A stretch of 55,592 bases of DNA from Allokutzneria sp. NRRL B-24872. GTDB lineage: Bacteria; Actinomycetota; Actinomycetes; Mycobacteriales; Pseudonocardiaceae. The translations under genes and the position numbers were made by a program. The stretch covers positions 1-55,592 of the forward strand of contig NZ_MUMH01000053.1 of assembly GCF_002155965.1 (NCBI RefSeq). The letters are read 5' to 3'. The notes under the pieces were generated by a model. It saw nothing but the letters and a program-made list of their open reading frames with translations, was not told the DNA's origin and did not search any database. Below, in pieces: positions 2,066-37,286 of the stretch (positions are counted from its first letter, which is position 1; every line of letters starts with the position of its first letter).

Positions 2066-2097
2066 GATATGGAGCCGATAAGGCGGCTTCCTACCGT
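2066..2097 (+). promoter_or_regulatory. Predicted SARP box and promoter 1 (glycosyltransferase)
   Basis: Direct repeat GATAT (2066-2070) and GATAA (2077-2081), 11 bp apart, then 10 bp and a TACCGT -10 hexamer (2092-2097). The expected transcription start is at about 2104, the A of the glycosyltransferase ATG, so the mRNA is probably leaderless. It has the same 32-bp geometry as seven other sites in the window. Confidence 0.72.
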
Positions 2098-2103
2098 GGC
2101 CCC

Positions 2104-3243
2104 ATGCGCGTGTTGTTCTTGCCGATTCCCGGAATCGGACACTCCTTCCCGACCGTTCCCCTGGCATGGGCGCTGCGCGCTGCCGGGCACGAAGTGCTCT
2201 TCGGCACCGCCTACGCGGGCGTCGCCGTGGAGCGGGCCGGGCTGCCGGTCGTCGACATCGGCCTCGGCGCCGACCAGCCGGAGGTCTTCGCCGAGCTGGA
2301 ACGGCGCTACCCCGAGCTGAACGCGAAGATGCGCGGTGACAACGGCGCCGGGCTCACCGACATGCTCGAAGCGGTCCCGGTGTTCGCCGGGATCACCGAG
2401 CAGATCACGCTCCCGGTGACCGATCTGGCCGAAGCGTGGCGGCCGGACGTGATCGTGCACGGCGCGCTGCACGGCGCCGCGTTGATCGCCGCGGCCAAGC
2501 TCGGAGTGCCCTCGGTGGACCTCGGCGACGGTTTCGGCCGGACCGTCGACGTGCCGGAAGCCATGTACGAGAGGCTTTCCCACGCCTTCGCCGAACACGG
2601 CGCGCCCGGACTGCCCGAGACGCGGATCAAGATCGACGTGGCGCCGCCGAGCATGGTCGGCGGGTCCTCGGAGGGCTGGCCCATGCGCTACGTGCCGTTC
2701 AACGGCGGCGCGGTGGTGCCGGACTGGTTGCCGCCCAACGCTCCTGAGCCGCAGCGGCCCCGGATCGGCGTCACGCTCGGCTCGGTCGCGGTGCACCTCG
2801 GCGGGCTCGGCCCGGTCGCGGCGGTGCTGGAGGCCGCGGGTGACCTGGACGCGGAGTTCGTGCTGGCACTGGGAGACGTGGACACCGAATCGCTCGGCCC
2901 GATCCCGCCGAACGTGCGGATCGCCGGCTGGGTGCCGCTGTCCGCGCTGCTGCCGACCTGCACCGCGCTGGTCCACCACGGCGGTGGCGGCACCACTTTG
3001 ACCGCGCTGCACAACGGGGTCACGCAGATCGTGCTGCCGGGCGGTGGTGACGGCAACATCAACGGCGAGGCGGTGGACAAGCGCGGCGCCGGGCTGTTCG
3101 TCCGCCCTGAGGCCGTGGACCCCGCGATGCTGGAGCGCGTGGTCACCGACGAGAAGATGCGTTCGGCCGCCGAGGAGGTCCGCGCGGAGATCGCCACGAT
3201 GCCGACCCCCGCCGACATCGTCTCGCGCCTGGAATCCTTGTGA
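2104..3243 (+). CDS. GT1-family (MGT-type) glycosyltransferase
   Basis: 379 aa; predicted to transfer a nucleotide-activated deoxysugar onto the peptide or a precursor in the cytoplasm. It has the GT-B architecture of macrolide/aglycone glycosyltransferases: N-terminal PIPGIGHSFPTVPLAWAL with the usual His near residue 13, and the C-terminal nucleotide-diphosphate motif HHGGGGTT at about residues 291-298. The following sugar-contact segment reads PGGGDGN where many relatives have P-x-x-x-DQ. The ATG at 2104 sits on the predicted start of transcription from box 1, with no Shine-Dalgarno sequence between. The nearby NDP-hexose 4-ketoreductase supports a deoxysugar donor. Other sugar-making genes are not in the window and may lie to the left. 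The acceptor is unknown. Confidence 0.8.
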   Translation: MRVLFLPIPGIGHSFPTVPLAWALRAAGHEVLFGTAYAGVAVERAGLPVVDIGLGADQPEVFAELERRYPELNAKMRGDNGAGLTDMLEAVPVFAGITEQITLPVTDLAEAWRPDVIVHGALHGAALIAAAKLGVPSVDLGDGFGRTVDVPEAMYERLSHAFAEHGAPGLPETRIKIDVAPPSMVGGSSEGWPMRYVPFNGGAVVPDWLPPNAPEPQRPRIGVTLGSVAVHLGGLGPVAAVLEAAGDLDAEFVLALGDVDTESLGPIPPNVRIAGWVPLSALLPTCTALVHHGGGGTTLTALHNGVTQIVLPGGGDGNINGEAVDKRGAGLFVRPEAVDPAMLERVVTDEKMRSAAEEVRAEIATMPTPADIVSRLESL

Positions 3244-3273
3244 TATCGGGTAAATAAGAGGCGTTCCTACGCT
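3242..3273 (+). promoter_or_regulatory. Predicted SARP box and promoter 2 (ABC permease 1)
   Basis: GATAT (3242-3246) and AATAA (3253-3257), 11 bp apart, 10 bp, then TACGCT (3268-3273). The first repeat overlaps the stop codon of the glycosyltransferase gene. The predicted transcription start, about 3280, coincides with the GTG start of the permease, giving a leaderless mRNA. Confidence 0.72.
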
Positions 3274-3279
3274 CGAAGC

Positions 3280-35243: not shown

Positions 35244-35256
35244 GGAGGTGGGGAGC

Positions 35257-36264
35257 GTGCCGATCATCTCCGAACCGGAGGACTTCCACGAGGACGACCT
35301 GTTCGTCGACCTGGAAGCGACCTTCGGCCGCAGTCTCTACCTCAAGTGCGAGGGCTTCAACTTCGCGGGCTCGATCAAGCTCAAGGCCGCGCGCGAGATG
35401 GTCGAGGCGGCCGAGCGCGGTGGTGTGCTGCGGCCGGGCACGGTCCTCGTCGAGTCCTCCTCCGGCAACCTCGGCGTCGCGCTGAGCATCCTGGCCGCCA
35501 GCAAGGGTTACGACTTCCTGTGCGTGACCGACGCGCGCTGCAACCTCGCCACCAAGCGGCTGATCGAAACCCTGGGCAGCCGGGTGCACACGATCGTCGA
35601 GCCCGACGCTGACGGCGGTTTCCTCGCCGCGCGCCTGCGCTACGTGCGCGAGCTGTGCGCCTCCGACGACCGCTACCTGTGGCTCAACCAGTACACCAAC
35701 CCGGCGAACTGGAAGGCCCACTACCGCTGGACCGCGCCGTCCATCGCCCGCAACTTCCCCGACCTGGACGTGCTTTTCCTCGGCGCGGGGACGACGGGCA
35801 CCCTGATGGGCTGCGCGCGCTACTTCAAGGAGCACCGCCCCGGGGTCACCATCGTCGCGGTCGACGCGGCGGGTTCGGTGACCTTCGGGGGACCCGCCGC
35901 GCCCAGGATGATTCCCGGCCTGGGCACGGGGGTTCGCCCACCACTGCTCGATGTGTCCTATGTGGACGATGTGGTGCACGTCCCGGAGGTCGACACCGTC
36001 CGGGCGTGCCACCGCCTGGCCCGCAAGGGTTTTCTGTTCGGCGGGTCCACCGGGACCGTGGTCAGCGGCGCGCTGCGCTGGCTGGCGGAGTTCGCGCCCG
36101 GCGGTGATCCGACCGCCGTCGCCATCGCTCCCGATCTGGGGGAGCGGTACCTGGACTCGGTGTACCAGCGCGGATGGGTCGAGGAGATCTACGGCCCCGA
36201 CGCGCTCGACCTCGACCACGAGGAGACAGTGACGATGCTGCAATCGATGGGTAGTGCGCGATGA
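35257..36264 (+). CDS. sbnA: SbnA-like PLP-dependent N-(2-amino-2-carboxyethyl)-L-glutamate synthase
   Basis: 335 aa, cysteine-synthase fold (PLP type II). PLP lysine K41 in FAGSIKLKAA, phosphate-binding SSSGNLGVALS (67-77), late GGSTGTV loop and PDLGERYLDSVY. SbnA joins O-phospho-L-serine and L-glutamate; SbnB then releases L-Dap. The start is GTG 35257, which follows AGGAGG (35243-35248). Longer in-frame starts at 35203 and 35248 would overlap or crowd the sbnB end and add unmatched residues. The stop overlaps the next ATG (ATGA). The pair gives the cluster its own Dap supply. Confidence 0.88.
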   Translation: MPIISEPEDFHEDDLFVDLEATFGRSLYLKCEGFNFAGSIKLKAAREMVEAAERGGVLRPGTVLVESSSGNLGVALSILAASKGYDFLCVTDARCNLATKRLIETLGSRVHTIVEPDADGGFLAARLRYVRELCASDDRYLWLNQYTNPANWKAHYRWTAPSIARNFPDLDVLFLGAGTTGTLMGCARYFKEHRPGVTIVAVDAAGSVTFGGPAAPRMIPGLGTGVRPPLLDVSYVDDVVHVPEVDTVRACHRLARKGFLFGGSTGTVVSGALRWLAEFAPGGDPTAVAIAPDLGERYLDSVYQRGWVEEIYGPDALDLDHEETVTMLQSMGSAR

Positions 36265-37247
36265 CCGTGACCACATATCTCAGGAGCGCGACCCCCAACG
36301 TGGTGTCGCTGACCGAAACCGACGCCGCCGCCGTGACCGAGGTCGCCCTCGGCCTGCTCGACGTCGCTGACGGCGTGATCGACGACCCCAAGTGGGTGGC
36401 CGCCGCGCGGGAGGCGTGGGACGAGCTCCCCGTCGCCGTGCGCAGGGCGATCCGGCGCTTCCGCCGCGACTCCGGTCCACAAGGGACACTCCTGCTGCGC
36501 GGCCTCCCCGTCGGCATGGACACCCTGGGGTCCACGCCGATGGTCGCAGGTTCCGTGCAGCGCAAGGCAACCGTTGGCGCCGCCGTCCTCGCGATGATCG
36601 CTTCGGGCCTCGGCGACCCCGCCGCGTTCCTGCCGGAGAAGACCGGCGCGCTCGTGCAGGACGTCGTTCCCGTTCCTGGCAAGGAGACCTTCCAGGGCAA
36701 CGCGGGATCGGTGCTGCTGTCCTTCCACAACGAGAACGCCTTCCACGAGCACCGCCCCGACTACGTCATGCTGCTGTGCCTGCGCTCGGACCACGAGGGC
36801 ATCGCGGGCCTGCGCACGGCGTGCGTCCGCCAGGTGCTCGACCTGCTCAGCCCGCGCAGCCGCGACGCGTTGTCCCGCCCCGAGTTCATCACCGAGGCGC
36901 CGCCGTCCTTCGGCGAGGGCAACGTCCCCGTCGCGCACGCCGTGCTCACCGGTGCTCCCGAAGACCCCGATCTGCGCGTGGACTTCGCCGCCACGCAGCC
37001 GCAGACCGAGGCGGGTTCGGCAGCACTGCTGGAGCTGGGCGAGCTGTTCGAGCAGACCGCGACCAGTTCCGCGTTGACGCCGGGCGATCTCGCGATCGTG
37101 GACAACCACGTGACCGTGCACGGCAGAACGGCCTTCACACCGCGCTACGACGGTCAGGACCGTTGGCTGCAAAGGACGTTCTCCCTGACCGGCCTCCGCC
37201 GCTCCCGCGCGTCCCGCCCCGGCGACGGCTACGTCCTCATCGACTAA
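36261..37247 (+). CDS. AsnO/VioC-family (clavaminate synthase-like) Fe(II)/2-oxoglutarate hydroxylase
   Basis: 328 aa. Iron ligands H156-N-E158 in the block SFHNENAFHEHRPDYVMLL, distal H287 (NHVTVHGR), 2-oxoglutarate Arg near R301-R305. The block is characteristic of hydroxylases that act on the beta carbon of free amino acids: AsnO (L-Asn) and VioC (L-Arg). Because module 2 has an Asn-like pocket, 3-hydroxy-Asn is the simplest expectation; another amino acid such as Arg cannot be ruled out. ATG overlaps the sbnA stop. It is the last gene of the promoter-6 operon; SARP box 7 starts 8 bp after its stop. Confidence 0.84.
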   Translation: MTVTTYLRSATPNVVSLTETDAAAVTEVALGLLDVADGVIDDPKWVAAAREAWDELPVAVRRAIRRFRRDSGPQGTLLLRGLPVGMDTLGSTPMVAGSVQRKATVGAAVLAMIASGLGDPAAFLPEKTGALVQDVVPVPGKETFQGNAGSVLLSFHNENAFHEHRPDYVMLLCLRSDHEGIAGLRTACVRQVLDLLSPRSRDALSRPEFITEAPPSFGEGNVPVAHAVLTGAPEDPDLRVDFAATQPQTEAGSAALLELGELFEQTATSSALTPGDLAIVDNHVTVHGRTAFTPRYDGQDRWLQRTFSLTGLRRSRASRPGDGYVLID

Positions 37248-37254
37248 CCCGCTT

Positions 37255-37286
37255 GATAACGAGGTAAAAGAACCGCCGCCTACGGT
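37255..37286 (+). promoter_or_regulatory. Predicted SARP box and promoter 7 (halogenase)
   Basis: GATAA (37255-37259) and AAAAG (37266-37270), 11 bp apart, 10 bp, then TACGGT (37281-37286). The predicted transcription start is near 37293, leaving about 30 nt of leader with a GAGGAG ribosome site before GTG 37323. Confidence 0.7.

Follow-up and report, generated by a model that had tools for sequence, protein, structure and literature searches.

A repeated putative promoter module in a nonribosomal peptide cluster

The stretch analysed here, called the window, is the whole 55,592-nucleotide contig NZ_MUMH01000053.1 of Allokutzneria sp. NRRL B-24872 (Pseudonocardiaceae), which is contig C425 of a 475-contig, 8.19-Mb assembly (G000). 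A nonribosomal peptide synthetase (NRPS) gene cluster spans position 1 to about 38.9 kb, with genes called by third-position GC content (GC3) frame and Pfam. It opens with a gene for a Streptomyces antibiotic regulatory protein (SARP), followed by genes for a glycosyltransferase, an ATP-binding cassette (ABC) permease, an epimerase and three large NRPS proteins with a thioesterase at the end. The rest comprises two cytochrome P450s, a second ABC permease, MbtH, an ABC ATPase, an adenylation-thiolation (A-T) protein, two TauD-type oxygenases, SbnB, SbnA and a tryptophan-halogenase-family gene. SbnB (419 bits, cut-off 326.9) and SbnA (386.6 bits, cut-off 349.95) both pass curated cut-offs and constitute the 2,3-diaminopropionate supply of the cluster. 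Eight copies of a 32-bp element, two direct repeats followed by a -10 hexamer and here called the box, lie before these genes. The box and the SARP that may read it are the subject of this analysis.

Table 1. The SARP gene, the eight boxes of the window and the genes behind them
Feature	Positions	Strand	Remarks
SARP regulator gene	1..2060	+	5' end cut off by contig start; Pfam hits in text
box + -10	2066..2097	+	before glycosyltransferase gene 2104-3243; start codon exactly 6 nt past -10
box + -10	3242..3273	+	before ABC permease 3280-4068 and short-chain dehydrogenase/reductase (SDR)/epimerase 4120-5115; GTG 6 nt past -10
box + -10	5208..5239	+	before NRPS operon 5279-26264 and P450 26261-27451; orthologous site in G001
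box + -10	28724..28755	-	before minus-strand P450 28685-27504; 6 bp back to back with box 28762
box + -10	28762..28793	+	before ABC permease 28801-29583; GTG 7 nt past -10
box + -10	29589..29620	+	before MbtH 29662-29868 and ABC ATPase 29865-30818
box + -10	30826..30857	+	before A-T NRPS 30898-33231, TauD, SbnB 34215-35243, SbnA 35203-36264 and TauD-type oxygenase 36261-37247
box + -10	37255..37286	+	before tryptophan-halogenase-family gene 37323-38867, final cluster gene

The eight sites lie at the coordinates and on the strands given in the initial annotation and all read GATA, 7 bp, RAWA, 11 bp, TANNNT; the equal spacing and the TANNNT hexamers hold at 8/8 sites. The consensus first proposed, GATAW-N6-RAWAW-N10-TANNNT, was slightly too tight. 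It is exact in 5/8 sites and reaches 7/8 with one mismatch, the departures being GATAC at 5208 and 28762 and a second repeat ending in G at 28762 and 37255. The relaxed pattern GATA-N7-RAWA-N11-TANNNT fits 8/8. As had been claimed, each box heads a gene or gene group, and from the gene layout we infer that the groups behind the eight boxes are transcription units. No box was found past 38.9 kb of the window, where other kinds of gene lie (HxlR, DNA ligase).

The number of matches expected by chance in the window is 0.00 (0/100 dinucleotide shuffles). When 90 combinations of spacing were tried, the 7/11 spacing gave 8 matches and all others together gave 3; these 3 keep the GATA-to-TANNNT distance and therefore appear to re-read the A-run in one known site. 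A scoring matrix was built from nine sites, the eight window boxes and a box on contig C204. Window boxes score 29.6–37.1 and the rest of the window <11, while the nine sites score 18.4–32.1 by leave-one-out. A chance origin was ruled out by the shuffles, the reversed-pattern controls and the whole-genome counts given below.

Statements made here about PMC10936776, PMC10972967 and PMC6692506 refer to excerpts of those papers. The published rule for SARP operators is that repeats are 11 or 22 bp apart and that the 3' repeat lies 8 bp from the -10 (PMC10936776). Read as heptamers, the box is GATAnnn, 4 bp, RAWAnnn, 8 bp, -10, and 8/8 boxes satisfy the rule, which agrees with the operator geometry proposed initially. 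An ordinary -35/-10 promoter was rejected, as no conserved hexamer occupies the -35 place. From 59 non-redundant sites scoring at least 20 the consensus was refined to C-GATAA-CG-nnn-C-GAWAA-n6-T-n3-TAGCGT; since sites were picked by matrix score, the core is conserved by construction and only the outside positions are informative. The sequence 11 bp ahead of the first core has an A+T of 0.44, 0.60 and 0.56, compared with a flank mean of 0.31 (50 sites outside the window cluster). This A/T-rich patch could be a degenerate third half-site or a contact for the C-terminal domain of the RNA polymerase alpha subunit. Start codons 6–7 nt past the -10 at three boxes support the -10 assignment, and the three promoters concerned (genes 2104, 3280 and 28801) are probably leaderless.

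The window SARP and its recognition helix

Domain searches bear out the view that the first gene of the window encodes a SARP. Pfam BTAD (PF03704) matches at 2.1e-43 and Trans_reg_C (PF00486) at 1.2e-07, the N-terminus being cut by the contig end, and the fold of the SARP part is plain from sequence comparison. An NB-ARC match (E 1.5e-05, 24.9 bits, cut-off 23.5) indicates a nucleotide-binding (NOD) domain. No TPR family, the C-terminal mark of AfsR-type large SARPs, was detected in the window SARP by Pfam at E<=1e-4; the 1002-aa homologue L015 has TPR_12 at 4.4e-25. The missing 5' end is carried by the end of contig C204, which overlaps the window by 21 bp with the frame open, and the protein is 698 aa once the gene's first 37 bases, which stand on C204 ahead of the overlap, are joined. 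Against the NCBIfam AfsR equivalog NF053617 the window SARP (query without the first 27 residues of the joined protein) scores 392.2 bits, and because 392 bits falls below the cut-off of 1430 it is not an AfsR orthologue.

AfsR of Streptomyces coelicolor, whose complex with the afs box was solved by cryo-electron microscopy, shares with the window SARP an OmpR-type DNA-binding domain, BTAD and a nucleotide-binding domain, two 11-bp direct repeats in the -35 place, and the helix residues R94 and K95 (PMC10936776). The helices differ: AfsR R87–K95 is RTYASRLRK and the aligned window segment is AICVAGLRK. AfsR reads bases with R92 (T-38) and T88 (G-36, template strand), and changing T-38 to A abolishes binding; T88, not R92, is listed among the conserved residues and is highly conserved in the SARPs aligned (PMC10936776). 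Both base-contact residues are absent in the window SARP, which has I at the T88 place and G at the R92 place. In our own numbering, with the -10 placed at -12 to -7, the box departs from AfsR's CGTTYATCG by G at -38 and A at -37, where AfsR's site has T-38 and T-37, and agrees with it in equal register at A-35, C-33 and G-32. In our opinion the half-site is unlike AfsR's TTYATCG because of the altered recognition helix. As read from the alignment, the changes at the T88 and R92 positions mark a divergent clade, and its domains still make the window protein a SARP.

The helix type of this clade is Q-I/V-A/Q-I-C/V-x-x-x-L/I-R, mostly QxxIC, with R retained at position 92 in some members (QVQICVSRLR; L093, L099–L102). 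Among 106 distinct sequences, 42 helices of this type group together with a support of 0.997 (FastTree), and one extra member lies inside the grouping (L181, helix QVKIAVSGLRK). Since the sampled sequences had been selected for similarity, for a box or for belonging to the genus, the tree speaks to grouping and not to frequency; the helices of L096, L097 and L106 were placed by profile alignment. A single genome, G001, was typed without selection. It yielded 45 listed BTAD matches, of which 42 were fetched and 41 had readable helices; 2/41 are of the clade type, and both belong to the box loci. The remaining 43 BTAD matches of G001 all lie more than 60 kb from a pattern match, the nearest at about 68 kb.

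Box occurrence in Allokutzneria genomes

According to the initial annotation, equally good matches spread over the genome would speak against SARP control. No such scatter is seen: the relaxed pattern has 10 matches in the 8.19-Mb assembly, all SARP-linked, and the reversed pattern has 1; 8/10 are in the cluster and the other two lie beside SARP genes. The ninth match (C204:645-676) stands before a 76-residue gene, which is followed by the window's own SARP gene. The tenth (C468:26350) stands before a similar 78-residue gene, followed by a second, paralogous SARP with a helix identical to that of the window SARP, GRTQIAICVAGLRK. A box ahead of the SARP gene hints at positive autoregulation by the SARP; co-transcription of the small gene and SARP is uncertain because about 315 bp separate them. 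The proposal that one SARP controls the cluster is supported by genome restriction, by co-occurrence across genera and by the operator geometry. The box is not private to the cluster, though: the second SARP locus also carries one, and therefore two related SARPs may share it.

Three Allokutzneria genomes were compared (G000, G001 and G002). In G001, which is one contig, there are 11 matches and none with the reversed control; nine are in the orthologous cluster and two at the second SARP locus. The orthologous cluster has all eight sites and the SARP-upstream site, in the order box, small gene, SARP, boxes, and 8/8 orthologous places match the pattern. Between G000 and G001, 88/88 core bases, 152/168 other box bases and 200/320 bases of upstream flank are conserved, a comparison biased by the G001 sites having been found by pattern. 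A global regulator was rejected, as G000 and G001 have no scattered matches. The evidence, read from sequence, points beyond one regulator to an entire clade of SARPs whose recognition helix is altered.

The small gene (76–78 residues) sits between box and SARP at both SARP loci in all three Allokutzneria genomes: on C204 (L022) at about 376–603 on the minus strand, at L021:6434-6667, and also in L078, L079, L080 and L081. Its product has one hydrophobic stretch, then a charged, coiled-coil-like part ending in IQRLLEDSV or IQRLLEQPV, and possibly acts as a membrane partner for these SARPs. It was found by tblastn (E<=0.01) in no further locus among those compared. Beside the SARP-side box a second repeat set faces the opposite way, pointing away from the SARP, at about 697–735 of L022 and about 9175–9218 of L011, a contig of Allokutzneria sp. 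A3M-2-11. By eye, it consists of three repeats, GATAAGC, GATAACG and GAAAAGG, at 11-bp steps and is kept in both genomes. Eight bp past these repeats stands TACGGG or TATAGG, not TANNNT, and part of the set scores 17.8.

Co-occurrence of box and SARP clade beyond the genus

Across 150 genomes of the family the pattern matched 129 times, in 48 genomes, and its reversed control 13 times. With the first 253 residues of the SARP as query, 23 genomes yielded at least 28 relatives at E<=1e-60; the searches scored the best 18 (family) or best 10 (class) first-look candidates per genome, and the SARP lists may be incomplete. Within 60 kb of such a relative lie 67/129 matches, where 1.94 are expected, and 40/98 of those outside the genus, where 1.07 are expected. 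A box match is present in 18/23 SARP-positive genomes versus 30/127 others, with means of 4.1 versus 0.28 matches per genome. Boxes scoring at least 18 occur in the available stretch of 19/28 SARP loci, versus 1/28 for the reversed control; at a score of at least 14 the numbers are 23 and 2. The cut-off of 18 was chosen after the scores were known, and the window sites are part of the matrix.

The pairing was also followed from the box. From the matches distant from a SARP at E<=1e-60, 12 loci were fetched, chosen by eye and not at random, which cover 20 of 62 such matches. Six of the 12 hold a SARP of the same helix type below the E cut (L104, L105, L106, L108, L109 and L115). L104 has six strict matches, and seven boxes scoring at least 14, around a small SARP with the helix QIAICVLSLRR.

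In a separate genome collection, 6/7 Streptomyces relatives of 49–51% identity carry a match, with the first repeat GATA in four and AATA in two. In five of the six loci (L013, L014, L015, L018 and L020) the SARP gene is directly followed by the box; in L016 the box stands before another SARP. L017 and L019, which are 41% identical and of another helix type, have no box.

The class-wide scan (246 genomes, 58 with matches) was of little use as a whole, the small AT-rich genomes of family f27 matching pattern and control similarly. Close SARP relatives occur in at least 6/246 class genomes, including 4 of 21 in genus g68 of family f20 by our count. There, 3/4 SARP-positive genomes have a box on the SARP's contig, the nearest 1.8, 2.3 and 54 kb away; SARP-positive G357 has none, and 1/17 SARP-negative genomes has a box. 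G355 of family f18 has a SARP relative and a box only on another contig.

Several results weigh against the reading of the box as a SARP-dependent promoter. Nine of the 28 close relatives have no box scoring at least 18 in the available stretch (L082, L092, L093, L094, L095, L098, L100, L102 and L103); four of these have the helix QIQICVSALRR, and L103 lies on a 4.2-kb contig. Conversely, 62/129 family matches have no SARP at E<=1e-60 inside a distance of 60 kb, and 6/12 box-fetched loci show no SARP in their 20-kb stretch. Within the genus, G002 has 10 matches, five on the contig of the orthologous SARP, two at the second SARP and three elsewhere. The seventh Streptomyces relative, L012, lacks a strict match, although it is 51% identical and its helix, QIAICVSALRR, is of the clade type. 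Co-inheritance of whole clusters could explain part of the co-occurrence. Poisson P values come out too small because boxes in one cluster are not independent, and counts were relied on instead.

Two side observations concern the genes behind boxes. At 4/6 SARP-less box loci the start codon, placed by a simple script, stands exactly 6 nt past the -10, as in leaderless genes; the genes are a TetR-type regulator (L113:9827), a hydrolase (L114:10014) and, by eye, two with signal-peptide-like starts (L116:9970 and L117:10003). In the three Streptomyces loci with genes called (L013, L015 and L020) the next gene after the box has 350 codons. That gene is SbnB in L013 (406 bits, cut-off 326.9), where chorismate-binding and glutamine-amidotransferase genes come after it. 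The SARP group may often accompany diaminopropionate-containing products.

Two other conserved sequences fit the pattern elsewhere, GATATGTCACAGAAACTTA... and GATACGGTC..GAAACTGC..., in genomes of families f2 (G152, G308 and G380) and f28 (G285, G315, G325, G334 and G368). These may be different conserved promoters of like geometry.

Proposed mechanism and alternatives

Taken as sequence, each 32-bp site is very probably an activator-dependent promoter for the cluster-situated SARP, a member of the altered-helix clade. It is also fairly probable that this clade, with I for AfsR's T88 and usually without R92, reads a half-site of its own, C-GATAA-CG, and that helix and box are paired across Actinomycetes genera in both directions, the helix predicting the regulon and the box finding the SARP, the cluster and its edges.

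From geometry and homology with AfsR we infer binding, dimer placement, activation and the identity of the sigma factor as follows. Two SARP protomers would lie side by side, one on the half-site C-GATAA-CG at about -38 to -32 and the other, 11 bp on, on C-GAWAA at about -27 to -21, and would occupy the place of the -35 element, which is unconserved here. From there the SARP would keep RNA polymerase and the housekeeping sigma factor at the TANNNT -10, eight bp farther downstream. By analogy, sigma adaptation as solved for AfsR is most likely, because it would agree with the lack of a -35, the constant 8-bp distance and the -10. A single SARP could in this way switch on the entire peptide pathway at once and, by way of the SARP-upstream box, possibly its own region as well.

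Another regulator, encoded elsewhere or of a type such as the response regulator PhoP, which uses 11-bp direct repeats, might read the boxes with the SARP as a bystander. The six box loci without a SARP in 20 kb and the 3/10 G002 matches away from both SARP loci fit such a reader, and PhoP does recognise the AfsR repeats at afsS (PMC10972967). A global regulator should, however, have housekeeping sites, whereas all G000 and G001 matches are at the two SARP loci. Furthermore, the box tracks relatives of the window SARP across genera, and the boxes of L104 surround a SARP of the same helix type. The PHO box is GTTCACC, and the half-site is unlike it. We consider a different regulator improbable. 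An alternative sigma factor acting without an activator, with GATAW as -35 and TANNNT as -10, would account for the well-formed -10 that ends the module and for three window promoters that look leaderless. The distance from GATAW to the -10 is 21 bp, however, beyond the usual -35/-10 spacing of 16–19 bp. Such a promoter also leaves unexplained the same-kind repeat 11 bp on and the weaker A/T-rich patch 11 bp further upstream, and no sigma factor gene was seen among the window genes scanned, whereas a SARP is there. A sigma factor alone is thus highly improbable.

Joint reading of the boxes by the window SARP and the second SARP (C468), coordinating the two loci, would refine SARP control and not truly rival it. 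Both proteins have the same helix, and both loci have a box before the small gene preceding the SARP; on the other side, each SARP may be inactive or sequestered under differing conditions. On sequence alone joint reading may be entertained as a tentative possibility.

The specificity of the box, with ten copies in an 8-Mb genome, all SARP-linked, allows cluster edges to be drawn and transcription units to be grouped. Cross-regulation between loci can be recognised from it as well, and it can guide the choice of activator to express when a silent cluster is to be woken. Given the paired changes in helix residues and box bases, a SARP recognition code can be tested directly by reference to the AfsR structures.

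Comparison with known systems

SARP control is well known, and this half-site paired with this helix is new relative to the literature covered. No description of the box was found in the open-access literature searched, subscription papers lying outside its coverage; GATAA in PMC6692506 is part of a primer. ActII-ORF4, DnrI, FdmR1 and CcaR resemble the window SARP as cluster-situated activators with heptameric direct repeats upstream of their targets, in operators of two or three repeats (PMC10972967). They differ in that no GATA-type half-site is described for them there ('gata' has 0 occurrences in the main text of PMC10972967), and the window helix lacks the T88 that is highly conserved in the SARPs aligned in PMC10936776. 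The SARP of the BagI/FevR model (NCBIfam NF041231) matches in its SARP part (E 8.2e-58); the window SARP scores 196 bits versus a cut-off of 500, and the model has just 315 positions. Mycobacterium tuberculosis EmbR (PDB 2fez) shares the two-domain SARP part (E 5.7e-36), differs in its helix, H-S-Y-V-S-N-L-R-K, and carries at its C-terminus an FHA domain (PMC10936776) in place of the NB-ARC of the window SARP.

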